Shown here piece after piece: positions 9,065 to 41,143 of a DNA stretch of 64,000 nt. Under the pieces are notes generated by a model that was not told where the DNA came from, did not search any database, and was given only the letters and a program-made list of their open reading frames with translations. The stretch's first letter is position 1; every line of letters begins with the position of its first letter. Location: contig NZ_JAAAKV010000015.1 of assembly GCF_009905725.1 (NCBI RefSeq), positions 1 to 64,000 of the forward strand, given 5' to 3'. The DNA is from Emticicia sp. CRIBPO (GTDB lineage Bacteria; Bacteroidota; Bacteroidia; Cytophagales; Spirosomataceae). The position numbers were made by a program, and so were the translations under genes.

Positions 9065-9088
9065 AGAAATTGAATAAATGATTGTTCA

Positions 9089-9096
9089 CAAAAATA
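9089..9096 (-). promoter_or_regulatory. -7 element upstream of GH95 gene
   Basis: TATTTTTG on the minus strand fits TAnnTTTG and lies 25 nt upstream of the GH95 start. No clear TTG is seen at the -33 position, so the promoter call is partial. Confidence 0.4.
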
Positions 9097-9189
9097 GCCT
9101 TTTTTGACATAGTTTTCAGGAAATGAATTAAAATCCCCTGCTTTTTAAATTATCAGTCTTAATTTGCAGTATTCAAACCAGAAATTAAA

Positions 9190-10134: not shown

Positions 10135-10200
10135 TGTTTAATGTCTGAATGAGTGAATGATAGAATGTAAGGAATATTAAATTCTGGAGTGACATCAATA

Positions 10201-10243
10201 AAAAAGGTAGCTTCCGGAGTTCCGGATAAGCTACCTTTTTTTC
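10201..10243. terminator. Bidirectional terminator
   Basis: Stem aaaaaggtagctt / aagctaccttttt with an inner ccgg/ccgg pair and T runs on both strands, between the convergent hydroxyacid dehydrogenase and DUF2911 genes. Confidence 0.9.
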
Positions 10244-10259
10244 TTTGAATATTATTTTC

Positions 10260-10751
10260 TCAGAATTTCAACGGAACGCTCACGGTGGTCATATCCCATG
10301 TGATGGTCAGGCTGGTGTTATCTGAGTTGATCAGTAATTTCTCCTGAACGGCGGAAGTTTTAGCTGGTTTTACTTTTACTTCAGCAATATTTTTTTCTTT
10401 GATACTGCCATAATTAGACGATCCCATCTGCTTCAATTCAGGATTCAGGATAACCGTCCATTCTTTTTCTCCCGGAATAGAGAAAAGGGTATAAGTACCT
10501 GCCTTAACACTTTTACCTCCGAAATTAACGTCTTTAGCAAAGGTGATTTCGGTACCCATGTTGGCACCTGTACGCCAGACCTGGTCGAAAGGCACCAGGG
10601 TTCCGAAGATTTCACGGCCTTTTTTAGAAGGTTGACTGTAAGAAATTTTGATGTTCTGGCTTTCTGAAGTAACGAGTGGACTAGCCGGTGACTGAGCATG
10701 CACGGTGCTTACGAAAAGAATAGCACTCAAAAACAATAGGACTTTTTTCAT
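10260..10751 (-). CDS. DUF2911 family secreted protein
   Basis: Periplasmic or surface protein of 163 residues with signal peptide MKKVLLFLSAILFVSTVHAQ. It carries the DUF2911 core: KISYSQPSKKGREIFG, then VPFDQVWRTGANMGTEITF, KAGTYTLFSIPG and EWTVILN. The domain is an all-beta fold found in many Bacteroidota; its role is unknown. Monocistronic; the terminator at 10201-10243 follows its stop codon. The nearest upstream gene on this strand is an ABC ATPase whose end is about 57 nt away, so cotranscription is possible. Confidence 0.85.
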   Translation of the reverse strand: MKKVLLFLSAILFVSTVHAQSPASPLVTSESQNIKISYSQPSKKGREIFGTLVPFDQVWRTGANMGTEITFAKDVNFGGKSVKAGTYTLFSIPGEKEWTVILNPELKQMGSSNYGSIKEKNIAEVKVKPAKTSAVQEKLLINSDNTSLTITWDMTTVSVPLKF

Positions 10752-10808
10752 TTCAAGAATGTCGTTTATTTTGTTGTTTAATATATACGCACCCTTAGAA
10801 CGAACAAA

Positions 10809-11546
10809 TCAATGCTTTATTTTTTCTTTCATCTTTTCGGCCATCTCTCTCGGGTTCGTAGGATTCGGATTGACCACATCAGACTCTATCAATCCATCCC
10901 TTAGCCTCACAATCCTGTGGGCATACATCGCAATGTCTTCTTCGTGTGTTACCATGATGATGGTATTGCCCTTGGCATGGATCTCATTAAAAAGCTCCAT
11001 GATCTCATAGGAAGTTTTGGTGTCCAGGTTACCGGTAGGCTCATCGGCCAGCAGGATACTCGGATCATTGACCAAAGCCCTGGCCACAGCCACACGTTGC
11101 CTCTGACCACCCGACAGCTCATTGGGCTTGTGCAACGACCGGTCTCCCAGGCCTACACTCGCCAGTACCTTCTGGGCTTTTTCTGTTCTGGCTGCTTTTC
11201 CATAACCTGCGTAGATCAGCGGCAGGGCTACGTTTTCAAGGGAAGATTGTCTCGGCAAAAGGTTAAATGTCTGGAATACAAAACCGATTTCCTTGTTACG
11301 TACTTCGGCGAGCTCGTTCTCCGTCATGCTGCTGACATCCTTGCCATTAAGGACATAAGTGCCGCCTGTAGGGGAATCAAGGCATCCTACAATGTTCATT
11401 AACGTAGATTTTCCGGAACCTGAAGGTCCCATAAATGCCACATATTCGCCTTTGTTTATACTGATGGTCACGCTTTTTAAAGCGTCAACGACTTCAGCAC
11501 CCATGATGTACCTTTTCGAAATATGATCGGTCTCGATTATTTTCAT
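10809..11546 (-). CDS. ABC transporter ATP-binding protein, MacB/LolD-like
   Basis: Cytoplasmic ATPase subunit of 245 residues with Walker [11 protein letters not shown]-loop VFQTFNLLP, signature LSGGQRQRV, Walker [14 protein letters not shown] and switch-His VTHEED. The pattern ([20 protein letters not shown]) is that of the MacB/LolD group, which drive mechanotransmission-type exporters for lipoproteins, peptides or macrolides. No cognate FtsX-type permease is adjacent, so the partner must be encoded elsewhere. The C-terminal extension ([17 protein letters not shown]) is slightly longer than in LolD. It follows the MsbA-like exporter gene on the same strand but is separated from it by 249 nt with a strong palindrome. 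Confidence 0.88.
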
Positions 11547-11734
11547 TTATTTCTGCATTAGACTTTCCGGAAACAAATGTATCATTAAATCATCTTCACA
11601 GATATTATTTTTCTACTAATGATAAAATTAACGGATGGATGGCTATGAAGGCTTGATGGTCGGTAAAGCGTCATGGCTGAAGCTCTCCGGAGGGCTTGGT
11701 TCGTGTGCTCAGATCTTCCGGAATCCGGGCTGAT

Positions 11735-11784
11735 TTTTTGATTGATTTTTAGATACGCACGGCCGTGCGTATCTAAAAATGTCA
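11735..11784. repeat. Long perfect palindrome, REP/MITE-like
   Basis: A 36-bp perfect palindrome centred near 11762 (half site attttt-agatacgcacgg) has no loop, and extends on both sides by attg/caat if two bases (gt) bulge on the right. Read on either strand it is not followed by a fresh T run, so it is an unusual terminator. The cgcacggccgtgcg core resembles dispersed palindromes that recur in many Bacteroidota genomes, from memory and not checked here. Confidence 0.75.
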
Positions 11785-11795
11785 ATAACCTGAAT

Positions 11796-13619
11796 TTATA
11801 ATTCCTGCATGGTAACCAGTTTCTTGTAGAAACCGTCTTCTATAGCGGCCAGCTCATCGTGTCGGCCTCTTTCTATGATTTTACCCTGATGGATGACCAG
11901 GATTTCGTCTGCATTCTGAATTGTGCTCAGACGGTGGGCAATGACCAGCGTGGTCCTGTTTTTCATCAGCTGCACCAGAGCATCCTGTACCAGTTTTTCA
12001 GATTCCGTGTCCAGGGCAGAAGTGGCTTCGTCAAGAATCAGGATCGGCGGATTATGTAAAATAGCCCTGGCAATGGAAATCCTCTGGCGTTGTCCGCCCG
12101 AAAGCTTGGTTCCCCGGTCTCCGATCACCGTTTGATAACCATCCGGCTGATTGACAATAAACTCGTGAGCATTGGCAATTTTGGCCGCCCTTACGATAGA
12201 AGTCTCAGGTACTTCAAAACCAAAAGCGATGTTATTAAAAATGGTATCATTAAACAGGATGGGTTCCTGGGTTACAATACCCATTCTCCCTCTCAGCGAT
12301 TTCTGTGAGATTTCGCGGATATCTTTACCGTCAAAAGTGATGGCTCCGCCCGTTACATCATAAAACCTTGGAATCAGGTCGGCGATTGTAGACTTACCTC
12401 CACCCGACGAACCCACCAGGGCTACTGTTTTACCTTTCTCCAGTTTAAAATTAATATCGCTCAGTATCTCTCTGTCAGCAGCATAGGAAAAACTGACATT
12501 TTTAAATTCTATGGCTTTTTCAAATGACTTCACTTCAACGGCATGCGTATCGTCTACAATTTCAGAACGCTGATTGATCAGGTCCAGGATTCTCTGACCG
12601 GAAGCCAACCCTCTTTGTGCCGAACTAAAAGCCTGGGCTATTTCTTTGGCCGGTCTGACCACTTGCGAGAAAATAGCAATATAAGTAATGAATGCGGATG
12701 CCTCCAAAAGACCGTCGTTGTTCAGGATCATGCTTCCTCCGAACAAAAGCAAGCCGGCTACCATCGTCACGCTGATCACTTCAGAAAACGGGTTGGCCAG
12801 TTCTCTTTTTGAGGCGTAGGCAAACAATGACTTTTTATAAGCCTGGTTTTCAAACCTGAATTTATTCTGGATAAAGTTTTCGGCCACAAACGCTTTGATC
12901 ACCCGCATTCCACCGAAAGCCTCGTCCATCAGACTGAGCAGATTCCCGAGCCTTTCCTGGCTGTCTCCGGCGTTGTGTCTCATTCTTTTGAGTGTCACTC
13001 CCAGAAAACCACCTGTTATCGGTATAATAATCAGTGAAAATAAAGTAAGATGCCATGACATCACAAAAAGGGTGATGAGGTAAGAGACCAGCAGGATCAG
13101 CTCTTTAATGGCTGCCGAAAAGGTGTTCGCAATTGAATTTTCAACCTCCTGCACATCGGTGATGATCCTTGAAATGAGATCTCCTTTACGTTCGTTGCTG
13201 AAAAACCCAAGGTTCAGATTAATGGCTTTGCCAAAAACCGCCTGGCGAAGGTTAGCCACCATGTTGACTTTGAAACCTTCCAGTAAGCGTAAACTGAGGT
13301 AACGGAATACATTGGAAATCAGGATACCGCAGACGATCGTCCCACAAACAAACTGCAGGGCTCCGATCTTGCCATGCTCTATGGAAATCCGGGCGAAAGT
13401 ACCGTAAAACAAATCGCTGATGTTATAAGAAACCGGCAGAGCGGCCATTTCCTGCAATTTTTCAGGACCGACCTGCCCGAACAGGATGTCCATCAGTGGT
13501 TTAAGCAAAACGAAGTTAAGAACACCGAAAACACCGGCAATCAGGGAGGTTATCGCAAACGGGATAATGAATTTTCTCAGGTTTCCGGCATACCGGAGGA
13601 TAGTAAAGTAGACTTTCAT
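11796..13619 (-). CDS. ABC exporter, MsbA-like (fused permease and ATPase)
   Basis: Half-transporter of 607 residues for a homodimeric exporter in the inner membrane. About six transmembrane helices occupy residues 15-330, including the ISRIITDVQEVENSI coupling region. The ATPase domain follows: Walker A VGSSGGGKST, Q-loop VTQEPILFNDTI, signature [10 protein letters not shown], Walker B ILILDEATSALD and H-loop IAHRLSTI. The architecture matches MsbA/lipid A and multidrug exporters; the substrate is not determined by sequence. It is divergent from the lipoprotein gene at 13773 and followed by the palindrome at 11735-11784. Confidence 0.88.
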   Translation of the reverse strand: MKVYFTILRYAGNLRKFIIPFAITSLIAGVFGVLNFVLLKPLMDILFGQVGPEKLQEMAALPVSYNISDLFYGTFARISIEHGKIGALQFVCGTIVCGILISNVFRYLSLRLLEGFKVNMVANLRQAVFGKAINLNLGFFSNERKGDLISRIITDVQEVENSIANTFSAAIKELILLVSYLITLFVMSWHLTLFSLIIIPITGGFLGVTLKRMRHNAGDSQERLGNLLSLMDEAFGGMRVIKAFVAENFIQNKFRFENQAYKKSLFAYASKRELANPFSEVISVTMVAGLLLFGGSMILNNDGLLEASAFITYIAIFSQVVRPAKEIAQAFSSAQRGLASGQRILDLINQRSEIVDDTHAVEVKSFEKAIEFKNVSFSYAADREILSDINFKLEKGKTVALVGSSGGGKSTIADLIPRFYDVTGGAITFDGKDIREISQKSLRGRMGIVTQEPILFNDTIFNNIAFGFEVPETSIVRAAKIANAHEFIVNQPDGYQTVIGDRGTKLSGGQRQRISIARAILHNPPILILDEATSALDTESEKLVQDALVQLMKNRTTLVIAHRLSTIQNADEILVIHQGKIIERGRHDELAAIEDGFYKKLVTMQEL

Positions 13620-13772
13620 GCTGGAATTTGGAAAGTTAAAAGGCCTCCATCCTGAGAGACCTGAAACTCAATTAACTAATTTGTATTTTTATATCTTGTA
13701 CTCCGGGTGTTGCCGAAAAACGGCACAAATTTCATTAAAATAGGTTAGATTTAAAACCTTAAACTCTATTTT

Positions 13773-14807
13773 ATGCGAAAGTGCATTTTATTCAACCTGG
13801 TTTTCATTTTTACAAGCGGCTTGTTATCCTGCACTGCCCCGGAAGAAAAACTATCTGTCAGCCGTGCATTTTATCATTGGAAAACCATTTTTGACCTTCA
13901 ACCTGCTGAAAAAGAATATCTTGAAAAACTGAAAGTCAATAAACTATATCTTCATTTTTTTGATGTCGACCTTGAACCTGTTACATACAGGGCCACACCC
14001 AAAGCCACCGTTGTCCTTAAAACAACACCTGACCGTGAAATAATTCCAACGGTTTTTATTACCAATAAAACCCTCGAGCTAAGCCCGCAAAATGAAATAG
14101 AGCCGCTGGCCGAAAATATTGTTCAGAAAATCAATGCGATAGCCTCCGCAAACCACATCAGATACCATGAAATCCAGATAGACTGTGACTGGTCAAAATC
14201 AACCCGGAAAAAGTATTTCAGGTTACTGAGCCGGATCAAAGAAGGTCTCCCGGCAGATAAAAAACTTTCAGTCACCATCCGGCTGCACCAAGTCAAATTC
14301 CCGGACATCACCGGCGTTCCCCCAGCAGACCGGGGCACGCTGATGATTTACAATACAGGCGACTGGAGAAATATCCGCACCAAAAACTCCCTTTTTGATC
14401 TTAATATCATTGGTCAGTACCTTGATAATCTTCCTGACTACCCTTTGGATCTTGACATTGCTCTTCCTGTTTTTGAGCAAACGCTCGTGTACAGGAACTC
14501 GGTTTTTCTACATTTTATCAAAGAGCAGACGTCCGAAAATTTAAATGCTCTTGATTTCTTAAAAAAAACTACAAATCCTGCTATTTTTGTTTGTACAAAA
14601 GATACCGTTTACACAGATGTATCGTTCAGGAAAGGAGATGTTTTCAGACATGAGAGGGCTTCTTTTGAAGACATCCTGGAAATCAAAAAAAATGTAACAA
14701 CAAAACTGAGAAATAAGAACTTAAGTATCATAATCTATCATCTTGATGAAAAATCCGTTAAAAACTACAGCCTCAACCAACTGGAAGAATTATTCGCCGA
14801 AAACTAA
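13773..14807 (+). CDS. Lipoprotein with predicted TIM-barrel-like domain (DUF3142-like), unknown function
   Basis: Predicted lipoprotein of 344 residues: hydrophobic signal then lipobox LLSC (Cys at 20). The mature part has FYHWKTIFDL at about 32, a strand-helix series with IQIDCDWSKSTRKKYF at about 131 and LSVTIRLHQVKF, GVPPADRGTLMIYN following. I recall this architecture from DUF3142-type proteins that look like (beta/alpha)8 barrels with an acidic loop near the end of strands, but the family assignment is tentative. No catalytic role can be named. The 3' end overlaps the next gene by 65 bp, which suggests translational coupling. Confidence 0.7.
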   Translation: MRKCILFNLVFIFTSGLLSCTAPEEKLSVSRAFYHWKTIFDLQPAEKEYLEKLKVNKLYLHFFDVDLEPVTYRATPKATVVLKTTPDREIIPTVFITNKTLELSPQNEIEPLAENIVQKINAIASANHIRYHEIQIDCDWSKSTRKKYFRLLSRIKEGLPADKKLSVTIRLHQVKFPDITGVPPADRGTLMIYNTGDWRNIRTKNSLFDLNIIGQYLDNLPDYPLDLDIALPVFEQTLVYRNSVFLHFIKEQTSENLNALDFLKKTTNPAIFVCTKDTVYTDVSFRKGDVFRHERASFEDILEIKKNVTTKLRNKNLSIIIYHLDEKSVKNYSLNQLEELFAEN

Positions 14808-17124
14808 AAAAGCCCTTAAGCTCCTTGCGGTATTTATCATTCTCGCCTGTGGACCGATGCCGCTTGATTTCGGGGAGTTTTACAGTTTTTTCTATCCGGA
14901 AAATGCTACAAACCCTGAGAATACACAGAAATACATTTATACCCCGCTGTTTCTGAACGAAGATGCTTACGAAAACCAACCGGCCACGCATTTTGACGAC
15001 TCCGTCAATATAGAAGCCTGGAAGAAATACCTCGATGATAAAATCAGTTTTGCGGAAATCAAAAAAGGCCTTTATGAAAAACAGGCCATGGAAAGCCTCA
15101 TTGCCAAAGTAAAGTCTCACGGAGACACAGAAGCGGCTGAATACCTCAAATTCTGTTCTGAAATAGATAGAAGTATCCCTTTAAAAGAAAATTACTGGGA
15201 CGAAACCCTTCCGGCAGATACAGCTGCCCTTAAAAATCTCTATGCTACTTCAAAGGCCCGTTTTTCAAGTGTTAAAAGTGATTTTGTTAAGGAAAGATAT
15301 GCTTTTCAAACCGTCAGGCTGGCAGCGGTAACGGCCAAACCTGAGCAGGCTATCAAGGATTATGAAACGCTGGTAGTGCCGATAAAGAACAAAACATTTA
15401 TCAGCGGATGGGCCCGCAGCCGTAAAGCAGGCGTGATGATGAACGCGGGAGACGTGCCCCAGGCCATTTGTGAGTTTGCACAGGTGTTTGAAACCTGCCC
15501 TTCCAAAAGATACCAGGCAGACCTGAGTGTAAGACGTCTGGAAAAACCAAAGTTTGAAGAAGCTCTCGGTTTCTGTAAAAATGACCAGGAGAAAGCGGCC
15601 GTTTATACCCTGTGGGCTATTCAGCCGTTCCAGGACGGCATGTCGCTGGTCAAAAAAATATACGCCATTGATCCTCAGCATCCGATGCTGGAACTGGTGA
15701 CCGCCAGGGAGATCAACAAAAACGAATACGGTTTTTTCGCATCTAAAAACGCGGAGTCATTTAATAACTACGGCGAGTTTAACGATGACAATTATAACGT
15801 TGATCCTAAGAAAGTAAAAGCGGCTGAAGACAAGTCGTCTGATTATTTTAAAGAGATTTTCGATTTTATTAACACGGTCATCAAAGACAAAAAAGCAAAA
15901 TCAAACCAGTTCTGGCTGGCTTCTGCAGCTTATCTCTCTTATCTGAACCACGAGAATGAACAGGCCAAAAAATACATTGAAGAGGTAAAAAAAGAGAAAA
16001 TCAGCAACCCATACCTGATCAGGCAGATGGACTTCCTGGAAATAGAACTGGCTGATAAGACCATGAATGCTGAAAATGAAGCTTTCCTCATTCAAAAAGT
16101 CGAAGGGCTTAAGGACGTTCAGAATTTCAGGGACAATATAGTGCTGGTCAATGCTTCCAAAAAACTTTCGGATTTCTATGCCGGAAAAGGTGAAAAGGTA
16201 AAGAAAAAAGGCGGATGGCTGAAGTCGTGTACCAGTTCTGACAAGCAAGACAAAGCACCCGGCAATGAAATCAAGGCTTTCCTGGCCGCGAATATCGGGG
16301 CCTTGCCTCCGGGTGAGTATGGTTACCAGTTCAGTGAATCGAAAATAAAGTTTATTGATACCTGTTCCGCTGCTTTTCTGAGAAAAGTGATTGCCTTTGT
16401 ACCTAAAACAGAGAACGACAAAAAGCTGGTGGCACTGGCCGGCCTGAAGACCGACGATCTTAACCTTGCCCTGGTCAGGAGGCTGACCACAGACGGAGCC
16501 TACCAGCAGGCTGCAGAGGTAGTGACCAAAGTTCCGGAAGAAACGCTTCTCAATGCCCAGTTTGGTGAATATTTCAAAGAATCTCCAACACAGATCAACG
16601 GCAAAAAACCTGTAGGCGATGACGTTCTGTCTTTTCTGAAAAACATGGCCCTTTACAAAAAACAAACGGAGCAGAATCCAGGTAACGCCGAGGCGTGGTA
16701 CCAATTGGGTGTAGGCCAATACAATCTCAGCTATCACGGCAATGCCTGGCTTCTGATCAAAAGAGAAAAAAGCAGTTATGAACTGGAATACGGAGAAGTT
16801 CATAAAGAAGATTACTATACCACGGAAAAAGCCAGGAGCTATTTTGAAAAAGCACTTGCTGCTAATCCGAATGCTGAACTCGGGGCAAAAATCTGTTACG
16901 CCGGAGCCTTGTGTGAACGCAACCAGTACCTGATCAAATATTACGAAGGAAGACCGGATACCTATGACGAAAAAGAAATAGATGACTATTATAAAAAGAT
17001 GGTAGCCAACGAGTTGCCCGGCTTCAGGACATTCTTTGAAAAATTGAAAACGACCTATCGTGAAACCCAGTATCAGAAAATGATATTGAAAGAATGCGAA
17101 ACCTACTCTGCCTATCTAAAATAA
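14743..17124 (+). CDS. Large TPR-like lipoprotein, unknown function
   Basis: Predicted lipoprotein of 793 residues. A hydrophobic stretch ends in the lipobox IILAC (Cys near 37). The middle is helical and lysine-rich; the C-terminal third (NAEAWYQLGVGQYNLSY, EKARSYFEKALAANPNAE) looks like degenerate tetratricopeptide repeats, implying protein binding. Start candidates are only the adjacent ATGs at 14743 and 14746; no later ATG, GTG or TTG precedes the lipobox, so the 62-65 bp overlap with the upstream lipoprotein gene is real. This supports cotranslated partners that probably meet at the cell surface or periplasm. No enzymatic motif is visible. The EamA permease gene follows after 9 nt. Confidence 0.75.
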   Translation: MMKNPLKTTASTNWKNYSPKTKKALKLLAVFIILACGPMPLDFGEFYSFFYPENATNPENTQKYIYTPLFLNEDAYENQPATHFDDSVNIEAWKKYLDDKISFAEIKKGLYEKQAMESLIAKVKSHGDTEAAEYLKFCSEIDRSIPLKENYWDETLPADTAALKNLYATSKARFSSVKSDFVKERYAFQTVRLAAVTAKPEQAIKDYETLVVPIKNKTFISGWARSRKAGVMMNAGDVPQAICEFAQVFETCPSKRYQADLSVRRLEKPKFEEALGFCKNDQEKAAVYTLWAIQPFQDGMSLVKKIYAIDPQHPMLELVTAREINKNEYGFFASKNAESFNNYGEFNDDNYNVDPKKVKAAEDKSSDYFKEIFDFINTVIKDKKAKSNQFWLASAAYLSYLNHENEQAKKYIEEVKKEKISNPYLIRQMDFLEIELADKTMNAENEAFLIQKVEGLKDVQNFRDNIVLVNASKKLSDFYAGKGEKVKKKGGWLKSCTSSDKQDKAPGNEIKAFLAANIGALPPGEYGYQFSESKIKFIDTCSAAFLRKVIAFVPKTENDKKLVALAGLKTDDLNLALVRRLTTDGAYQQAAEVVTKVPEETLLNAQFGEYFKESPTQINGKKPVGDDVLSFLKNMALYKKQTEQNPGNAEAWYQLGVGQYNLSYHGNAWLLIKREKSSYELEYGEVHKEDYYTTEKARSYFEKALAANPNAELGAKICYAGALCERNQYLIKYYEGRPDTYDEKEIDDYYKKMVANELPGFRTFFEKLKTTYRETQYQKMILKECETYSAYLK

Positions 17125-31672: not shown

Positions 31673-31829
31673 TCAGGTTTCACTCGTGGTAATGCTTTTT
31701 AAATAGAAAAGCAGGTATCTTTCTTCCTTACAAATAATATTTTATACCTGATGTGCATCATTCTATCAAGAATTCATGCACATCCTGGCATTGCTTTTTC
31801 CAATATTGTCATTTAACCATCAAATTTTA

Positions 31830-32825
31830 ATGTACATCATTGAAAGTTACTCTACCGCCGTATTTTTTTGCATCATCACCATGATTGCCTGGGGTTCCAG
31901 CTCAAACACCCAAAAACTCGTCAGCCCAAACTGGAGAGTTGAACTTTTTTGCTGGGACTATGCTTTCGGGATACTGATAACTTCACTGATCTTTGCATTA
32001 ACAATAGGTAGCTACGGAGCTGAGGGTCGAAGCTTCATTGAAGATCTTCAACAGGCCAATACCAAAAACATCGGCAATGCCTTGCTGGGAGGCATTATTT
32101 TCAATGCTGCCAACATTTTATTTATTTCTGCCGTGTCAATGGCCGGAATATCTGTGGCCTTTTCAGTGGGTTCCGGCTTATCTCTTGTCATTGGGGTCGT
32201 GGTTAATTACCTGGATTCACCCATCGGAAATGTTACCCTGCTCTTCTCAGGTGTCTTCCTTATTATTGTGGCTATTCTGCTGAATACAACCGCTTATGCC
32301 AGGATGTCTGCAGGAACAAAATCGTTTTCTGTAAAAGGACTGTTGATATCCATCAGCAGCGGGATTTTGATGGGGCTTTTCTTTAAATATGTCGCTAATT
32401 CAATGTTTCCCGATTTCAAGATTCCTGTCGAAGGAAAACTCAGTCCTCATTCTGCGGTTTTCATCTTCGCATGCGGTGTTTTCCTCAGTAATATTTTCTT
32501 CAACACGTTCATCATGTTCAAACTGTTTACCGGCACCCGGGTTAGTTTTGCCGGCTATTTCAAAGGAAGTTTCAAAAATCACTTTTTAGGAGTTATGGGT
32601 GGTTCTATATGGTGTATCGGGATGTGTTTTAGTATTATCGCCTCTGACAAAGCAGGAACAGCTATTTCATATGGGTTGGCATCCGGAGCAATCGTCGTAG
32701 CCTCTATATGGGGTATTTATGTCTGGAAAGAATTCAAAACAGCTCCCAAAGGCACCAATGTCTTACTGAACATCATGCTGATTTCATTTCTCTCCGGATT
32801 AATATTAATTGTCACTTCCAGGTAA
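31830..32825 (+). CDS. DMT/GRP-type sugar or metabolite permease
   Basis: Ten-helix membrane protein of 331 residues. The start MYIIESYSTAVFFCII at 31830 precedes ITMIAWGSSSNTQKL, a signature found in Bacteroidota permeases of the DMT superfamily related to glucose/rhamnose transporters. The longer ORF start at 31776 adds a hydrophobic stretch that is not needed. Substrate unknown. A terminator at 32866 ends the transcript. It may be cotranscribed with trpD (157 nt gap) but a functional link is not evident. Confidence 0.8.
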   Translation: MYIIESYSTAVFFCIITMIAWGSSSNTQKLVSPNWRVELFCWDYAFGILITSLIFALTIGSYGAEGRSFIEDLQQANTKNIGNALLGGIIFNAANILFISAVSMAGISVAFSVGSGLSLVIGVVVNYLDSPIGNVTLLFSGVFLIIVAILLNTTAYARMSAGTKSFSVKGLLISISSGILMGLFFKYVANSMFPDFKIPVEGKLSPHSAVFIFACGVFLSNIFFNTFIMFKLFTGTRVSFAGYFKGSFKNHFLGVMGGSIWCIGMCFSIIASDKAGTAISYGLASGAIVVASIWGIYVWKEFKTAPKGTNVLLNIMLISFLSGLILIVTSR

Positions 32826-32865: not shown

Positions 32866-32901
32866 AAACGCCTTCTCTGCATTGCAAAGAAGGCGTTTTT
32901 T
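32866..32901. terminator. Bidirectional terminator
   Basis: Stem aaacgccttct / agaaggcgttt with a T tract between the convergent permease and ASKHA-like genes. Confidence 0.85.
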
Positions 32902-32923: not shown

Positions 32924-33955
32924 TTAAGGAAGCGACAACAAAAATCCGATGGTAAAGTTAGCATCCCAGTCAAACACAAATTGTTCTGTTCCGGTAGCGT
33001 CTTTGATGCCTTTGTAGATGTTAAGCCCGGCTTTGGCTTTCGCATCTTCCAGTTTATATTCCTTCGGATCTTTCAACACTGTGTATCTTTCTTTTCCTGC
33101 ACGCACTTTTTTAGCCAGTTCAAAAGGTACCCCACCGATGATAAAACAGGTTTTGCGTTTCAGGCTTGGAACGTCAGAAGCGAGTTTTTTCACTTCGTTA
33201 TACACTTTTCCGTCATCATCACCATTCTGGAAATACTTGGCTCCGTAAGTTTCAAAAGCTGAAATAGAGCTTCCGCTGATCCATGAAATTTTGGTGTTAC
33301 CCGAACCGATATCTGTTACAAACGCTTCTTCTTCGTAATCTTTCGGCAATACACATTTCAAAGCCAGGGCTCCTTCCTGCTGCGGGGTCACGGTATTGAC
33401 CTGGTAGTTAAGCGATTTCAACGCCTTGATGATTTTCTGGGTTACCTCGGCTTTTGCCGCTCCGGAACTTACCACAAAGTGGATATTCTTGCCGTTAACA
33501 CCATAATCCAGCATAGACCCGATGTATTTTTTCAAACCGATTCTAACATCGTCATCTGTGGCCATGTTTTCAGTAACGAGGCTGTTACCAAATTCCGGCT
33601 TTACAAGTTTCCAGTTTTTATCCTTATCAATTCTGACGATGAATGAGTTAAAACCACTGGCTCCCAGTTCAACCACTCCTTTCAACGTGCCGTTGATCGG
33701 CTCAGGAGCTACGTAAGTGAAGCCTGAGTTGCTTTCAGCAGTAGCTTCAGTATCTGTGGCAGCAGAACCTTTGGTCTCTGCTCCGGGGATGCTCGGACTT
33801 TCAACCTCATCGGTTGTTTCTTCTGTCTGGCTCTGGGCTTTCAGTTTCTGACCCAGGGATGTATTTTCAAGAAACCATTTTCCTCCAAAAAACAGGGCCG
33901 CCACAATGGCGATGATCATCATGAATTTTGAAAAAGGCGTTAATCGTGTTTTCAT
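32924..33955 (-). CDS. Membrane-anchored ASKHA (actin/Ppx-like) protein
   Basis: Predicted inner-membrane protein of 343 residues. One transmembrane helix near 11-28 (MMIIAIVAALFFGGKWFL), then a low-complexity Ser/Thr/Glu linker to about 75, then an actin-like fold: GVVELGASGFNSFIVRID (phosphate-1 loop type) near 93 and FVTDIGSGNTKISWISG (phosphate-2 type) near 216. The pattern resembles Ppx/GppA or the FtsA/Hsp70 group more than MreB, but no Ppx active residues can be confirmed. It is the last gene of a three-gene unit with two coiled-coil proteins; 22 nt separate it from the upstream gene. ATP binding and assembly are inference. Confidence 0.75.
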   Translation of the reverse strand: MKTRLTPFSKFMMIIAIVAALFFGGKWFLENTSLGQKLKAQSQTEETTDEVESPSIPGAETKGSAATDTEATAESNSGFTYVAPEPINGTLKGVVELGASGFNSFIVRIDKDKNWKLVKPEFGNSLVTENMATDDDVRIGLKKYIGSMLDYGVNGKNIHFVVSSGAAKAEVTQKIIKALKSLNYQVNTVTPQQEGALALKCVLPKDYEEEAFVTDIGSGNTKISWISGSSISAFETYGAKYFQNGDDDGKVYNEVKKLASDVPSLKRKTCFIIGGVPFELAKKVRAGKERYTVLKDPKEYKLEDAKAKAGLNIYKGIKDATGTEQFVFDWDANFTIGFLLSLP

Positions 33956-33977
33956 TGTTTAAAAGTATAGTTTATAA

Positions 33978-34964
33978 TTAATTATCAAATAATTTATCGT
34001 ACTGGTTACCGCTTCTTTCGGAAGAGCTGACCTGGTTACCAGCCACCAACAGCTTTTTGTCACTTCCTAAAAGCATAGATACCCCTTCTTTTTCCCATTT
34101 TTCGAGCATATCCAGACCTTCTTCTTCAAATACACCATTTTGCAGGTCAATTGAATTCATAAAGTTAGAAGACAAATCCATGAATCTCTCCATTTCTCCG
34201 ACTTTCTGACTCACATCTTCAGCGATATTCTCCAAAGCCATGTCAAACATGTGTCTCTGATCTTTGTTACCCGAAAGAATGTTCATCGCAGAGGTCATGG
34301 CAGAGTGACTCGCACGGATGGCTTTACGCTCCTGCTCTTTCACCATCACCTGGTCTTTGATGTCCTCCAGCATGATCTCTGAGTTTTCATACATTTTACC
34401 CAAGACACGGTACAGGATCTCCATCTTCTTATAAAGGTCTTCCAGTTTCATGTTAGACTCTTTCAGACGGCCGGCTTTTCTGGCCTTCAGCACCATCAGG
34501 GCTTGTTTATCCGTTTCCTTGGCTTTGCTGGCCAGGCTCAGGTCGTTCTGAATCTGCTTCGAATTATTATCGATGATGGTCTTAAGATTCACCATCTGGC
34601 CTTTCAACTGAGTAATCTGCTGGTTCATTTTACCCAGGTTGCTTCTCAGCTCTTCCACGTAGGTTTTAAGGATACCGATCGGGTCGATCTGTACGAAAAT
34701 ACCGGTAATCCAACGCATGATACCCCTGTAGATATAAAACACCATCTGACGCATTTTAGAGTCAAACACCATATAAAGCAAAGCAGCCAGGGCCACCAGG
34801 AGCAGGGCAAGATAAAGCGTATTTGAAGCCAGCGAAATTAGAAAAGGTAAAGACTTATAAAGAAAATATCCACCGGCGATGATACCTGTTGCTAAAAAAA
34901 GCATACCGGTCGTACCTTCCGGTTTCTCCCAAAATGATTTTGGTTTGATTTCCTGTAGTTCCAT
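33978..34964 (-). CDS. Membrane coiled-coil protein (PspA-like layout), unknown function
   Basis: Protein of 328 residues: two close hydrophobic helices at about 18-37 and 43-66, then a long helical, charged coiled-coil region (about 100-290) with IDPIGILKTYVEELRSNLG and NQQITQLKGQMVNLKTII, resembling in arrangement the PspA/IM30 or ESCRT-III-like helices though with a membrane anchor added. C-terminal tail is Ser-rich. No enzymatic motif. It sits between the soluble coiled-coil gene and the ASKHA gene in one transcription unit, so an assembled membrane complex is plausible. Confidence 0.75.
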   Translation of the reverse strand: MELQEIKPKSFWEKPEGTTGMLFLATGIIAGGYFLYKSLPFLISLASNTLYLALLLVALAALLYMVFDSKMRQMVFYIYRGIMRWITGIFVQIDPIGILKTYVEELRSNLGKMNQQITQLKGQMVNLKTIIDNNSKQIQNDLSLASKAKETDKQALMVLKARKAGRLKESNMKLEDLYKKMEILYRVLGKMYENSEIMLEDIKDQVMVKEQERKAIRASHSAMTSAMNILSGNKDQRHMFDMALENIAEDVSQKVGEMERFMDLSSNFMNSIDLQNGVFEEEGLDMLEKWEKEGVSMLLGSDKKLLVAGNQVSSSERSGNQYDKLFDN

Positions 34965-35016
34965 AGTTTTTATTTGTTTTAAATTTAATCCGAAAGTTTA
35001 TTTTATGAGTATTAAT

Positions 35017-35679
35017 TTATTTGAGATATTGACTGATTTTCTGGATATCCGTTTCAATCTGACCAGCCAGATCCATGTAAGTCGTTTTAAAATCATTTTT
35101 CGTCGCATCCAGTTTTAAAACCGACTCTGAGATTTCAGCTTTCAGTTTTTCCATAGCAGCCTGACCCTCCTGGATCTCTTTGGTCAGCTGGGCTATTTTC
35201 TCTCCTTTTTGTTTTAGCCCGAGTTCCATATCCTGGATGTTCTTTTCCTTGTCACCGATCTGCTTGGCCCTCTGCACACTCAAAGCTTCCTGAAACTTGC
35301 TTTCTTCTTCTTTAAGGGTTTTCAGGTAAACGTTTGCCGTGTCTGTCAATCGCTGCTGCGAAGTACCCATGGCCTGGGCCGCAGCATAAGCCGACTGGTA
35401 ACGGGTGGCTTCATCCATAGGCAACTTGGCCAGGCTTTGCAGGGATTTTTTAAATTCAAGGTAATCAAAACCTTCCTGATTGTTCTTTTCCAGCGAACTG
35501 AACAATAAATCGTAGAACTGCTCACTGACTGACCCCTTGACTTCAACTGGTGCTGAAGCGGCAGCCTGCGACTTGGTTTCCGGTTTTTCAGATGCTTTTT
35601 CAGAGGGCTCTTCAGTAGCCGAACCGCTGGCATCATCCACAATAAAAACGCTTTTGATTTTCTTTAAAAAATCGCTCAT
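35017..35679 (-). CDS. Soluble coiled-coil protein, unknown function
   Basis: Protein of 220 residues: an amphipathic N-terminus (MSDFLKKIKSVFIVDD), a Glu/Ser/Ala linker to about 45, a helical middle (SVSEQFYDLLFSSLEK, LEFKKSLQSLAKLP) and a C-terminal coiled coil (about 105-205, KNIQDMELGLKQKGEKIAQL). The amphipathic start could bind membrane. It is the promoter-proximal gene of the three-gene unit; a weak promoter lies just upstream. No family recognised. Confidence 0.7.
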   Translation of the reverse strand: MSDFLKKIKSVFIVDDASGSATEEPSEKASEKPETKSQAAASAPVEVKGSVSEQFYDLLFSSLEKNNQEGFDYLEFKKSLQSLAKLPMDEATRYQSAYAAAQAMGTSQQRLTDTANVYLKTLKEEESKFQEALSVQRAKQIGDKEKNIQDMELGLKQKGEKIAQLTKEIQEGQAAMEKLKAEISESVLKLDATKNDFKTTYMDLAGQIETDIQKISQYLK

Positions 35680-37961: not shown

Positions 37962-38321
37962 ATGATACGTAAAATAGTTGTATTTACCCTTTTAGCATTA
38001 GTTTCTTTTGCCTGCGAAAAAGAATCGGACACCATCAGTGATCTGAAACTGGTATCTTTCAGACCCAATCAATGCAGTGAACCATGGGATCTGGAAAAAT
38101 ACAATAGCCCCGGAGAAATCAGCCGGGAAAACCGCTTAAAGAACTACCTCAAAGAAAAGGGTATAACTACCATCACCAACTTTGAAGCGGTCACTTCAGA
38201 CAGCGGGTCCTATTGCAAGGCCTGCACCTGCCCGGATAATCATGTTTTTAAATTTACTGTCACTTTGCAGGATTATACAAAGCTGAAAAACATGGAGCCT
38301 TTTTCAACCTATCTGTCTTAA
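37962..38321 (+). CDS. Cys-rich lipoprotein, tandem paralog 1
   Basis: Small predicted lipoprotein of 119 residues: signal and lipobox FAC (Cys near 18). Mature part contains FRPNQCSEPWD, LKNYLKEKGIT and CKACTCPD, then an FTVTLQDY-KLKNMEPFSTYL end. The same pattern occurs in the next two genes. Four Cys in the mature part invite metal binding or disulfides. Function unknown. Confidence 0.82.
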   Translation: MIRKIVVFTLLALVSFACEKESDTISDLKLVSFRPNQCSEPWDLEKYNSPGEISRENRLKNYLKEKGITTITNFEAVTSDSGSYCKACTCPDNHVFKFTVTLQDYTKLKNMEPFSTYLS

Positions 38322-38388
38322 AGCCGGAAAAACCTGATTCCAACTTTCAGGACAGATGAAGAATCATCATAAAAAATACAAATTAATT

Positions 38389-38748
38389 ATGCTACGTAAA
38401 ACATTTGCCATCGCCCTTCTTGCACTTGCCTCTTTTTCGTGTGAGAGCAGTTCAGTTCCGGCTGAAAACGAAGTAAAACTAGTGGCTTTCAAGCCAAACC
38501 AATGCAGCGAACCATGGGATGCCGCCAAGTACACCTCCAATGAAAGCCTGAGCCGTGCAGACAGGTTGAAAAACTATCTCAAAGATAGTGGCATCGGACA
38601 GATTACAAATTTTGCTGTAACGACCGATAATAACGCCTACTGTGCAGCCTGTACATGCCCGAGCAGCGACAATATCAAGTTTACTGTAAGTCTGTCTGAC
38701 TTTGAGAAATTGAAGACCGTAGCTCCTTTTTCGACTTATCTCAAATAA
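38389..38748 (+). CDS. Cys-rich lipoprotein, tandem paralog 2
   Basis: Predicted lipoprotein of 119 residues with lipobox SFSC (start MLRKTFAIALLALASFSC; an earlier in-frame ATG at 38356 is rejected because this is the clean signal peptide). Contains FKPNQCSEPWD, RLKNYLKDSGI and CAACTCPS, and ends APFSTYLK. Close paralog of the neighbours; 67 nt after the first. Confidence 0.82.
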   Translation: MLRKTFAIALLALASFSCESSSVPAENEVKLVAFKPNQCSEPWDAAKYTSNESLSRADRLKNYLKDSGIGQITNFAVTTDNNAYCAACTCPSSDNIKFTVSLSDFEKLKTVAPFSTYLK

Positions 38749-38771
38749 CCGGCTGAGTTGCCGGATTGATT

Positions 38772-39137
38772 ATGACTCCCAGGATATTATTGCTATTACT
38801 CCTTTCAGTGAATTTTGTGGCCTGTGAAAATGAGCAGGAAGAAAAGTGGGAAGAAAGAGGACTGAAACTGGTAGCTTTCAAGCCTAATCAGTGTAATGAG
38901 CCCTGGGATGGTGCCGGATACAGAACTTCCGAAGCTCCTAGCCGCCCCGAAAGGTTGAAAAATTACCTCAGGGACAATGGTATCAGCCAGATTACAAATT
39001 TTGAGATCACAATAGACAACAAGATATACTGTGAGGCTTGCTCTTGTCTGAGTGGCGAAAACGTTAAGTTTACCGTAACCATCTCAGATTTTGAAAAATT
39101 GAAAACCATCGCTCCTTTTGATAATTATCTGAAGTAA
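38772..39137 (+). CDS. Cys-rich lipoprotein, tandem paralog 3
   Basis: Predicted lipoprotein of 121 residues, start at the second ATG (38772; a longer form begins 38766). Lipobox FVAC. Contains FKPNQCNEPWD, RLKNYLRDNGI, CEACSC and an IAPFDNYLK end. 23 nt after paralog 2, so the three are one transcript ending at the terminator at 39151. Confidence 0.82.
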   Translation: MTPRILLLLLLSVNFVACENEQEEKWEERGLKLVAFKPNQCNEPWDGAGYRTSEAPSRPERLKNYLRDNGISQITNFEITIDNKIYCEACSCLSGENVKFTVTISDFEKLKTIAPFDNYLK

Positions 39138-39205: not shown

Positions 39206-41143
39206 TTATTTCAACGAGTTGATATAAGCAGCAATGGTTAATGCATCTTTTTTCGGAACCTGTGGCATCGGGGCCATTGGAGTGGCGTAATCAGGCCAGT
39301 TTTCAGGCTTAGGATTGTAGATCAGTTCTACGATCTTCTCAGCACTGTACTTTCTTTTAGCCACATCTTTGAATGCTGGGCCTACTACTTTCTTGTCTTC
39401 AGAGTGACAAGCCAGACAGGTGTGTTTCTGAAGAAGTGGTTTGATCTGTGCAAAAGTCATCGGAGCTGCTTTGGCTGGTGCCGCGGTAGTTGCTTTGCCT
39501 TTGCCGTCAGGGGAAACCGTTTCTTTAGCAGTTTTAGATGGAGCCTCCGCTTTAGCTTTACCTGAATCAAAAGTCTTCAGTTCAGCAGCACCCAGTTTAG
39601 CTCCTTCCGGAATCGCGTTCAGGGTGTAATAAGCCGTAGGGTGTACCAGTGACCATGAACCGGTCGTAGCTCTGATACCGCCTAAAGTAAGTTCATGAAC
39701 ATAATATTTTCTCAGACCGTCAGCTACAATTCTCAGTTTTTTACCGTCTTCCGAAAGCTTAACTCCTTTGATTTTCAGATCTTCACGGTTGATCGGAGGT
39801 GAACCGTAAACCGGGTGGTGCTTATAGATAAAGCTGCTCAGTGAAATTGAAGACAAATCTTCAGCAGATTTACGATCAACCGGCATGGTGAATTCTACTT
39901 CAAAACCGTCCGGCATAGCCTTCACCGTTGACATTTCGAAAGGTATTTTTCCATTCCAGATCAGTCTTTGCAAACCCTGGTTGGCATCTCCGGCCGATCC
40001 CCATCCACGGTTGGTTTCTCCGACAAACATCGATCCGTCCGGAGCGAAGGTCATACGCATGACACCCGACTGGAATCCTGAACGGAAATCCCAGGCAGCT
40101 CCCTGAAATTCGCCGTTTACTTTTTCAAGATAAACCCTCATGATTTTTGACTGACCCTGGTCACCTACAAACAACTGACCGGCAAACGGACCGAAGTCAC
40201 CCTGCGTTTCATCTTTGATGATCTCAGAGTTTGAAATTCCGAGAATACCGTGAGGAAGCCAGACTGCCGGCAACTGAACCGCAGGATATTTCTCTTTCAA
40301 TGTATACAGATAATCAGGTTTCTCATTAACCACGTTCTCAGGCTTAATGTAATTTCCACCTGCATTCTTCACTTTCCTGTTGTCTCTTTCTGCAAAAAAC
40401 TGTTCTTCAGTCAGTTTTACCGGAGAGTTTTTATCTACCCATTTTAAACTGGCCGGGTGTCCGGTGAAAGCTCCTTTTTTAACGTGCCATACTCCACCTG
40501 ATCCCATCCAGTCACCTTGGTTGTCTGCATAGAACAATTCGCCGTCTATCATACCCAAACCGGCCGGAGAACGCATACCTGCAGCCCATGCTTCGATTTT
40601 ACCATCTTTATGTACTTTGAATATCGAACCTCTGTTAGGTACTCTCGCTTCACCTCTCCACCATTCCTCATCACCGAAAGCCACATTACCACTGACGAAA
40701 AAGCTTCCGTCCGGAGCAGGCTTAGGCCCGAATGAATATTCGTGATAGTGACCTGAAACAGGCCATGCACTGACAGTTTCATAGCTGTCGGCTTTACCGT
40801 CGCCATTCTTATCAGTCAGCTTGGTTAACTCACCTCTCTGGGCACAATAGAATGAGCCGTCTTTGTAAATCAAACCAAGTACTTCGTGAAGTCCTGAAGC
40901 AAATTTCCTGAAATAGGGCTGACGGCTGGTCGGGTTCTCCACCACCCAGATGTCTCCGCGTCTGGTAGCCAGGGCAAGTGATCCGTTCGGAGTCATGGTT
41001 ACACCACCGACTTCCAATAAAACACCTTCAGGCACAGGCAGGGTAACGATTTTATAAAAATCCTCTTCTTTTGGCGATTCCTGGGCCAGAACGGCAGAAG
41101 AACAGGCCATCGTCAGTATTAAAGCTTTAAATATTTTTTTCAT
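39206..41143 (-). CDS. Secreted beta-propeller dehydrogenase with C-terminal cytochrome c
   Basis: Secreted protein of 645 residues (signal peptide to LAQ). The N-terminal part is beta-propeller-like (sorbosone/glucose dehydrogenase type: GVTMTPNGSLALATRRGD, MRMTFAPDGSMFVGETNRGWG); the C-terminal domain has a haem-binding CLACH (about 579) with ligands near MAPMPQ, preceded by an Ala/Lys-rich linker. It probably oxidises a sugar or alcohol and passes electrons out. Closely followed upstream on this strand by the DUF1080/PA14 gene (about 21 nt), so the two are one operon. Confidence 0.85.
   Translation of the reverse strand: MKKIFKALILTMACSSAVLAQESPKEEDFYKIVTLPVPEGVLLEVGGVTMTPNGSLALATRRGDIWVVENPTSRQPYFRKFASGLHEVLGLIYKDGSFYCAQRGELTKLTDKNGDGKADSYETVSAWPVSGHYHEYSFGPKPAPDGSFFVSGNVAFGDEEWWRGEARVPNRGSIFKVHKDGKIEAWAAGMRSPAGLGMIDGELFYADNQGDWMGSGGVWHVKKGAFTGHPASLKWVDKNSPVKLTEEQFFAERDNRKVKNAGGNYIKPENVVNEKPDYLYTLKEKYPAVQLPAVWLPHGILGISNSEIIKDETQGDFGPFAGQLFVGDQGQSKIMRVYLEKVNGEFQGAAWDFRSGFQSGVMRMTFAPDGSMFVGETNRGWGSAGDANQGLQRLIWNGKIPFEMSTVKAMPDGFEVEFTMPVDRKSAEDLSSISLSSFIYKHHPVYGSPPINREDLKIKGVKLSEDGKKLRIVADGLRKYYVHELTLGGIRATTGSWSLVHPTAYYTLNAIPEGAKLGAAELKTFDSGKAKAEAPSKTAKETVSPDGKGKATTAAPAKAAPMTFAQIKPLLQKHTCLACHSEDKKVVGPAFKDVAKRKYSAEKIVELIYNPKPENWPDYATPMAPMPQVPKKDALTIAAYINSLK

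Follow-up and report, generated by a model that had tools for sequence, protein, structure and literature searches.

A conserved coiled-coil gene pair of Emticicia sp. CRIBPO and other Bacteroidota, linked to a Ppx/GppA-like or a solute-binding/OmpA partner

Actin-fold domains have been known chiefly from ATPases and polymers of the cytoplasm, and the PspA/IM30 and ESCRT-III proteins are generally known as peripheral proteins without membrane helices. Operons of transmembrane Snf7/PspA-like proteins with an AAA+ protein, an ABC ATPase, a permease and a PBPB-OmpA protein are described in the part of Ravi 2024 used here (PMC11237479, mSystems), where OGG56892.1 is an example protein. The present locus lies in the window (the whole analysed stretch of 64,000 nucleotides) and comprises three genes, A, B and C. 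In other Bacteroidota, a solute-binding/OmpA protein (SBP-OmpA; hereafter S) is encoded after A-B. By description, these S operons resemble those in the same part of Ravi 2024 (membrane coiled-coil protein, solute-binding/OmpA protein, ABC transporter and sometimes AAA+), and the S-type operon is already described there in outline. The window shares with the S operons the A-B pair and a homologous anchor on the third protein, but S was not found in its genome (G000; E ≤ 1e-35), and a Ppx-like protein predicted to be exported, C, is encoded instead. GppA is not mentioned in the main text of that paper, and among the listed part of its 23 mentions of 'actin' none concerns an actin-fold partner; no published description of the C form was found. 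The preliminary description had found no described system with this trio, which stands for the C form but not for the wider kind of operon covered in PMC11237479.

Two further systems invite comparison. TelA-centred clusters of Vibrio plasmids likewise combine SBP-OmpA proteins with a coiled-coil partner (TelA), vWA and ABC parts, but A and B lack profile similarity to TelA and to its 257-aa neighbour (hhalign of A and B against TelA gave probabilities of 1.8 and 0.3, with no Pfam TelA match), and TelA/XpaC membership was therefore rejected. Triads of a kinase, a PP2C phosphatase and a vWA protein are mentioned in the part of PMC7159879 considered; such triads directly precede C-A in G024, G040 and G466, whereas none is present in the neighbourhood of the window locus.

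Layout and conservation of the locus

ORF calling confirmed the reported arrangement of three genes on one strand, separated by gaps of 52 and 22 nt. The features are:

35017–35679, minus strand: gene A (ORF), a soluble protein of 220 aa with a basic/aromatic N-terminal motif, a low-complexity linker, a small helical region and a C-terminal coiled coil.
33978–34964, minus strand: gene B (ORF and structural model), 328 aa, with two N-terminal membrane helices followed by long helices.
32924–33955, minus strand: gene C (ORF), 343 aa, with one N-terminal membrane helix, a Ser/Thr/acidic linker and a Ppx/GppA-type ASKHA domain predicted to be periplasmic.
33818–33955, minus strand: anchor module of C (RLTPFSK and membrane helix; the first 46 codons), common to the S proteins.
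32866–32898, minus strand: terminator-like hairpin 3' of C with a 15-bp stem, found by strand folding.

The hairpin (minus-strand z −7.9) has its U-tract on the plus strand and thus looks like a terminator shared by C and the convergent plus-strand transporter gene at 31776–32825; it is absent from the output of the consensus terminator scan. A sigma-70-type promoter scan found 3 candidates against 5.4 expected. None of A, B and C scores as high as the cut-off of any Pfam or NCBIfam family, and membership of a known anti-phage defence system was rejected because PADLOC models match none of the three at E ≤ 0.01.

All three genes are conserved as proteins in other genomes. B is present in 23 of the 59 relatives searched, and 20 of these matches were fetched as wide stretches. 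A homologues adjoin B in 20/20 stretches and C is adjacent in 14 of the 20, directly downstream in 13 and upstream in one, which supports the conserved gene order on which the preliminary description had been made to depend. The genes surrounding A-B(-C) are mostly unshared among the stretches. B and C co-occur genome-wide even where they are unlinked, 21 of the 23 B genomes also encoding C and the remaining two having S right after B. Furthermore, A was found in 68 of 80 named loci. Within the genus, the trio was found in only one of ten genomes. C occurs without B in G024 and G040, and without A and B in G144 and G367. Three B genomes (G095, G218, G234) have neither a strong C nor S and carry a second copy of B, for which no second A was seen. 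Spread by plasmids was rejected, given that B was not found on the plasmids of the collection and C-like proteins occur on only two of them, both from Hymenobacter.

The three proteins and the shared anchor

The basic/aromatic N-terminal motif of A is conserved, with Phe12 invariant in 21 rows. An amphipathic start had been proposed for A, but its helical moment is not above that of shuffled sequences (fraction 0.36 for the window segment; below 0.05 in one of 21 family members). The membrane helices and long helices expected for B are borne out by its predicted structure; a hydropathy scan gave one start only. B is weakly similar to PspA_IM30 (PF04012; E 4.9e-4, 20.2 bits, under the cut-off of 33.9 bits), a family that matches 8/52 B family members at E ≤ 1e-3, with the coiled-coil family TACC_C matching 3/52. 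The best Foldseek match of the B model is CdvB2 (E 0.044), BAR domains and Vipp1 are also listed, and none reaches E ≤ 0.001. With hhalign against six PspA proteins, the probability was 22% using alignment A5 (0.6% reversed), but only 3.2% using the more diverse alignment A1 (1.3% reversed). These matches, all sub-threshold, are only suggestive of kinship with PspA/ESCRT-III, and B differs from that peripheral type by the two N-terminal membrane helices of its model. A PF04012 match at E ≤ 0.001 was found in 4 of 19 genomes searched and not in the window genome or its nine congeners, so A-B does not serve a canonical PspA there. The earlier view that this is not the standard Psp set is upheld, and the link of B to PspA is weak.

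The ASKHA fold proposed for C is supported by two approaches. Its profile matches Ppx/GppA among solved structures (PDB; best E 8e-6), and its model, a modest one built from four sequences with a mean pLDDT of 64.9, matches 1t6d in Foldseek (E 3.9e-13, probability 1.00, TM 0.53/0.58). The 50 fold matches listed are Ppx/GppA and NTPDase structures, none of them actin, MreB or ParM. Legionella NTPDase1, which is exported, comes after Ppx/GppA and has the ASKHA fold in common with C (E 6.0e-10, 11% identity in the structural alignment); it is an enzyme, whereas C is a probable sensor. PF02541 matches 15/16 members of the C alignment at E ≤ 0.1 (best 1.4e-6), with window C at 15.9 bits, below the cut-off of 27 bits.

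In common with Ppx/GppA phosphatases, C retains the Glu of the TPEQEG motif (Glu194, aligned to Ppx), kept in 26/26 close rows (L023 and L129, both counted here and in the anchor counts, are one record) and in 8 of the 11 far rows listed; the other three (L140, L167, L188) are S proteins matched through the anchor, with a gap at this position. The phosphate-2 Asp (Asp215) is kept in the same rows. C is unlike these phosphatases in its membrane anchor and predicted export, and in two active-site positions. The phosphate-1 Asp is Glu96 in 25/26 close and 5/8 far rows, and an invariant Lys222 (26/26 close rows and the same eight far rows) stands where the DxGGGSTE loop has the Glu that was mutated in H. 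pylori 6pc1 (E143A). Because of this last replacement, canonical Ppx catalysis by C is doubtful.

The anchor of C was compared with that of S. Window C and the S of L120, which lies beside the closest relative of window B, are identical at 31 of 45 anchor residues. Their pairwise score is 172, compared with a mean of 22.7 and a best non-S/C score of 49 among 402 ORFs with an N-terminal membrane helix. A profile of 48 S anchors matches window C at E 2.1e-18; over 1744 ORFs, every match below 1e-3 is S or C and no other falls below 0.14. At E < 1e-3 this profile recovers 19 of the 26 C proteins, comprising 18 of the 20 that bear the motif plus L127, and the seven missed are L026 (0.13), L090 and five that start as lipoproteins or with a signal peptide. 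Judged from these sequences, C and S have one homologous N-terminal anchor and unrelated outer domains. The homology of the anchor, together with the lipoprotein or signal-peptide starts of some C relatives (read by eye), places the C domain very probably outside the cytoplasm, unlike a cytoplasmic actin-type ATPase.

Exchange of C and S, and neighbouring systems

Among 395 genomes of the phylum, S was found in seven, all of them among the 17 with B. In this search the match in G423 is weak (6e-4), and the stretch retrieved for it contains no labelled gene. Fourteen genomes were compared through named loci, with S judged beside B only and one locus (L145) being G001 again: seven have S beside B and lack C, and the seven without S beside B all have C. 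In 18 of the 23 B genomes among the 59 relatives, C is present and S was not found (E ≤ 1e-35). Strict mutual exclusion was withdrawn, since C and S are both present in three of the 59 genomes and G467 and G468 encode A-B-C-S-permease-ATPase in one row; thus C and S replace one another usually, not always. On a tree of B, the partner label changes at least eight times; this is a quick tree with long-branch warnings (L107 above all). It excludes the duplicates L129 and L145 as well as loci whose partner is unknown, and some of its C labels denote C anywhere in the genome rather than beside B. The sister of window B is L120 B (84% identity, SH-aLRT 97), whose neighbour is S; this 'S only' state holds for the 9-kb contig of L120 alone.

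In L024 and L039, S is followed by genes that Pfam identifies as permease and ATPase (in L039 the permease scores below the cut-off). A permease-like protein follows S in L108 (below the cut-off), and the proteins after S in other loci are similar in size and in their number of membrane helices, judged without a domain scan. The gene order in G024, G040 and G466 is vWA-PP2C-kinase-C-A, in triads that are presumably of the TerY type; C with such a triad also occurs without a transporter beside it. In L097, a lipoprotein-type C directly follows an MscS-family channel.

Alternative explanations and a possible envelope-sensing module

Several explanations were weighed. C may be an active exported phosphohydrolase of the Ppx/GppA-NTPDase kind, acting on periplasmic polyphosphate or nucleotides, with A and B merely placing it or recycling the product. 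Its fold, its leading structural matches and the retained Glu194 and Asp215 are those expected of such an enzyme, but Lys222 and Glu96 are not, and exchange with a solute-binding protein is more easily reconciled with binding than with catalysis; we regard this explanation as unlikely. About as unlikely is a role mainly in transport, with A-B as accessory scaffold of an SBP-OmpA ABC importer and with the full operon reduced, in C-only lineages, to a remnant for regulation or ligand handling. The G467/G468 row and the transporter-like genes after S suit that idea, and it is opposed by the 18 B genomes with C and no S and by the C genes that adjoin the kinase triad and no transporter.

The preliminary description, which had suggested a membrane-remodelling or stress-response complex, can be read as a cytoplasmic actin-type ATPase working with PspA-like coats in membrane remodelling. 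Its conserved unit, ASKHA fold and non-Psp character have held, and the PspA_IM30 match of B and its nearest folds (among them CdvB2, BAR and Vipp1, all with E above 0.04) give the coat some footing, weak as the PspA link is. The shared anchor and the lipoprotein and signal-peptide relatives place C very probably on the other side of the membrane, however, and actin, MreB and ParM do not appear among its listed fold matches, which makes the proposal improbable as a whole. Three unrelated neighbours held together by chance or slow rearrangement would fit the scarcity of the trio within the genus, but A-B adjacency amid unshared surroundings and the co-occurrence of unlinked B and C contradict this explanation and leave it almost no credence.

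The genes for A, B and C (or S) are linked or co-occur; a ligand, signalling and membrane remodelling are what we infer for them. The explanation preferred here, at about even confidence, is an envelope-sensing module across the inner membrane with exchangeable outer domains and possibly a PspA-like inner side. In such a module, a ligand, most naturally guessed to be of the phosphate type, would bind in the cleft of the two-lobed ASKHA domain of C. Whether the cleft is open or closed would be relayed by the single membrane helix to A and the PspA-like helices of B, both of which would assemble at the cytoplasmic face of the membrane. RLTxFSK, the short part of the anchor on the cytoplasmic side, may dock on the helices of B or A; across classes, more similar anchors do not go significantly with more similar B proteins (rho 0.116, a value reached in 100 of 1000 permutations), and co-evolution therefore does not demonstrate docking on B. 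In the S form, this input would be supplied by a solute-binding domain that OmpA fastens to peptidoglycan and that is coupled with an ABC transporter, and in some lineages the module may instead work with the kinase/PP2C/vWA triad. The output could be membrane protection or remodelling, a guess from the PspA resemblance. A more specific version, which we offer tentatively and consider rather unlikely, is an extracytoplasmic receptor of a new class, in which a Ppx/GppA domain with altered catalysis, carried on an exchangeable anchor, would read a phosphate-type ligand or the state of the envelope. From across the membrane it would control either a coat resembling PspA/ESCRT-III or a relay of Ser/Thr kinase, PP2C and vWA protein, and it would be interchangeable with a peptidoglycan-tethered solute-binding protein.

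If the envelope-sensing module is real, replacement of a solute-binding/OmpA protein by an exported actin-fold domain on a homologous anchor, beside a membrane protein possibly akin to PspA/ESCRT-III, would amount to a natural domain-swap experiment: the module's input must then lie in whatever both outer domains share, such as ligand sensing or tethering. What Psp-like SBP-OmpA systems sense would then become directly testable, and in Bacteroidota nameless genes would be linked to the sensing of envelope state, to proteins of membrane coats and to relays of kinases and phosphatases.

The three-gene unit and its conservation

Three closely packed minus-strand genes are found in the window, exactly as read in the preliminary description, with gaps of 52 nt between A and B and 22 nt between B and C:

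35017-35679, minus strand, gene A, ORF for a 220-aa soluble coiled-coil protein
33978-34964, minus strand, gene B, ORF for a 328-aa membrane coiled-coil protein
32924-33955, minus strand, gene C, ORF for a 343-aa protein with an N-terminal membrane helix and a Ppx/GppA-type ASKHA domain

None of the three matches a Pfam or NCBIfam family above its cut-off, or a PADLOC entry. Folding reveals a hairpin 3' of C with a 15-bp stem (minus strand -22.8 kcal/mol, z -7.9), which is absent from a consensus terminator scan. Since its U-run lies on the plus strand, it probably ends both the trio and the convergent transporter gene. Two further features were observed in the window:

37962-39137, plus strand, three tandem paralogues of ~120 aa (119, 130 and 123 aa) with lipoprotein-like starts, a common NQC(S/N)EPWD motif and no Pfam match at E<=0.01
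39206-41143, minus strand, 645-aa protein with a cytochrome c domain at its C-terminus

A match to B is present in 23 of 59 relative genomes, and wide neighbourhoods (L021-L040) were taken for 20 of these, leaving out the window genome (G000), G022 and G032. The gene order proved conserved: a homologue of A adjoins B in all 20 stretches (19 by BLAST, L039 by clustering and alignment), and C lies immediately downstream of the pair in 13. Elsewhere, the C gene immediately precedes A and encodes a signal-peptide Ppx-like protein (L040), lies ~6 kb away on the opposite strand (L037), or is located at another site in the genome (L022, L028, L029); searches of the stretch and the whole genome did not find it for L024 and L039. 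The flanking genes mostly differ between stretches. Genome-wide, C (E<=1e-8) occurs in 23 of the 59 genomes, comprising 21 of the 23 with B plus G024 and G040. In 395 genomes drawn from the phylum, which overlap the 59 by a few, B was found in 17 (one weak) and strong C (E<1e-50) in eight, six of them with B. At least 554 relatives of B were returned by a named scan; among the best 80, whose titles are Bacteroidota except for one untyped MAG, A is labelled at 68 loci, full-length S (a solute-binding/OmpA membrane protein) is present at 48 and C lies within the stretch at three.

Fold of C and nature of A and B

The profile of C matches Ppx/GppA structures (best E 8e-6), and a structure search with its predicted model (4 sequences, pLDDT 64.9, pTM 0.55) retrieved Aquifex Ppx/GppA (E 3.9e-13), followed by GppA, exopolyphosphatases and Legionella NTPDase1. 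The ASKHA fold previously assigned to C is thereby upheld, as the Ppx/GppA type. Like Ppx/GppA proteins, C keeps Glu194 (in a TPEQEG motif) and Asp215, both invariant across 26 close and 8 far relatives. However, Lys222 stands without exception where H. pylori has the loop Glu E143 (the residue mutated in 6pc1), and Glu96 takes the place of the first-loop Asp in 25/26 close and 5/8 far relatives. Because of these two differences, a role as a canonical phosphohydrolase is doubtful, and a binding domain is likelier.

The predicted model of B (pLDDT 71.0) contains two N-terminal membrane helices, as had been described, followed by long helices. B scores 20.2 bits against PspA_IM30, below the 33.9 cut-off; PspA_IM30 is matched at E<=1e-3 by 8/52 B relatives, and a generic coiled-coil family by 3/52. 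None of the structure-search hits, among them CdvB2, BAR domains and Vipp1, reaches E<=0.001. For hhalign against six PspA proteins, the probability was 22% for one alignment and 3.2% for a more diverse one, with reversed controls at 0.6% and 1.3%, respectively. This hints that B may be related to ESCRT-III/PspA proteins; of the PspA/IM30-like helices invoked earlier, a weak sub-threshold similarity of B stands, with no match above cut-off. No nameable relative of A was found, and its reported amphipathic start does not rise above shuffles.

The alternative third gene S and the anchor common to C and S

In G001, a genome of the window's genus group, the gene after B encodes S, which combines a single membrane helix with NMT1/THI5-like solute-binding and OmpA domains. 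Genes for an ABC permease and an ABC ATPase come next, then one for an AAA+ protein that has an AAA_lid_6 domain. G047 keeps this order through the ATPase, with OmpA clear and NMT1 and permease below the Pfam cut-off. L107, L108 and L111 encode B, S and then two further proteins, the first with 4-5 membrane helices and the second 276-285 aa long; in L108 the protein next to S is a sub-cut-off permease and an AAA+ protein is also present. The S proteins of L107 and L108 have OmpA and no Pfam solute-binding match. S also follows B in L112 and L113, where in L113 the next gene does not encode a multi-membrane protein. L120 S is 58% identical to G001 S.

S (E<=1e-35) was detected in 7/395 phylum genomes, all among the 17 with B, and in 6/59 relatives. 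The 23 B genomes of the 59 divide into 18 with C only, two with S only (G001, G047) and three with both (G015, G035, G036); G002 has S plus a divergent A-B missed by the B search. Across 14 genomes reached via named loci (L145 repeats G001), seven have S beside B and no C, and the other seven, where S was sought beside B only, all have C. Mutual exclusion of C and S is nevertheless a tendency and not a rule, because G467 and G468 hold both in one row of six genes (permease and ATPase by BLAST):

L251, 4145-10819, A-B-C-S-permease-ATPase
L252, 4135-10808, A-B-C-S-permease-ATPase

Phylum-draw searches found neither strong C nor S in G095, G218 and G234, which have B. Second B copies with no A labelled beside them were seen in these genomes at L103 9508-10545, L105 9502-10527 and L114 9638-10669.

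C and S have a homologous anchor. The motif M..LTxx(S/A/G)(K/R) precedes one membrane helix in 48/48 S and 20/26 close C proteins. We searched 1744 neighbourhood ORFs and window C, with every filter disabled, using a profile built from the 48 S anchors. It matched 19/26 C at E<1e-3 (18 of the 20 motif-bearing ones, plus L127, whose called start lies upstream) and window C at 2.1e-18. Every match at this threshold was S or C (best other ORF 0.14); the seven C missed were L026 (0.13), L090 and five with lipoprotein or signal-peptide starts. The anchors of window C and L120 S are identical at 31/45 positions (score 172), against a mean of 22.7 and a best non-S/C score of 49 for 402 other ORFs with an N-terminal membrane helix, a background that still contains S of L024, L039 and L107-L113 (three among its top eight shown). 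Past the anchor, the two proteins have no meaningful similarity. Their B partners are sisters (84% identity, SH-aLRT 97), and on a quick tree of 85 B proteins the partner label requires 9 changes, at least 8 forced by well-supported branches. Over 61 loci, the window C anchor has a higher mean similarity to S anchors (0.36) than to other C anchors (0.29), and anchor-B co-variation across the C/S classes was not significant.

The OmpA peptidoglycan-binding and solute-binding domains act in the periplasm. S proteins carry the former, and in clear cases the latter too; the C domain is placed in the periplasm because its anchor is homologous to that of S. Independently of this, and judged by eye, C relatives in L097/L098 have lipoprotein-like starts and those in L040, L099, L100 and L109 secreted-protein-like starts. 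The C domain is thus very likely exported.

The S form resembles, in outline, the operons of PspA/TM-Snf7 homologues with AAA+, ABC ATPase, permease and PBPB-OmpA for which membrane remodelling linked to transport is proposed in the main text of Ravi et al. (2024; PMC11237479), where no mention of GppA or TelA was found. No mention of OmpA or GppA was found in the portions of PMC9239133 covered, and portions of PMC2875224 and PMC7159879 treat related vWA/OmpA/kinase themes. In line with the preliminary remark that no described system with this trio could be found, a non-exhaustive search of open-licence literature (supplementary tables excluded) turned up no description of the C form; the S form is described in outline in PMC11237479. 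Two Vibrio plasmid clusters, domain-scanned in L223 only, are architectural cousins of the S operon:

L223 (NZ_AP019851.1), 8040-16815, ABC ATPase, two SBP-OmpA, vWA protein, 257-aa protein, TelA, another SBP and permease
L224 (NZ_AP025146.1), 8027-16811, the corresponding cluster

Other settings of C and a proposed role

In G024 and G040, which have C, a search with positive control G246 found no B. Together with G466, examined at the locus only and ordered by BLAST to G040 genes, they encode C and A behind a phosphorylation triad in place of B; two of the genomes belong to one genus and the third to another family:

L229, 7988-13357, vWA, PP2C, protein kinase, C, A
L230, 3637-9254, same order
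L250, 7097-12843, same order

G144 and G367 each have two lipoprotein-type C genes, with A and B not detected, and the second C directly follows a small membrane protein, in G367 an MscS-family channel by Pfam:

L097, 7386-14024, pair of C genes, the second directly behind the gene for the MscS-family channel; an AraC-type regulator is encoded close by
L098, 7535-14166, similar layout (domains scanned in L097 only)

These settings favour a role in envelope sensing and signalling over one in metabolism. The preliminary reading of the trio as a membrane-remodelling or stress-response complex is partly supported, and its observations are confirmed save the amphipathic start of A. As the likeliest reading, we give about even chances to the trio being a module in which the outer domain, C or S, would sense a ligand or the state of the envelope. 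The cytoplasmic end of the anchor would couple that domain to A, and to B where present, or alternatively to the kinase/phosphatase/vWA triad. The analysis establishes the linkage of the genes, the fold of C and the common anchor, and we infer the docking, ligand, signal and output of the module.
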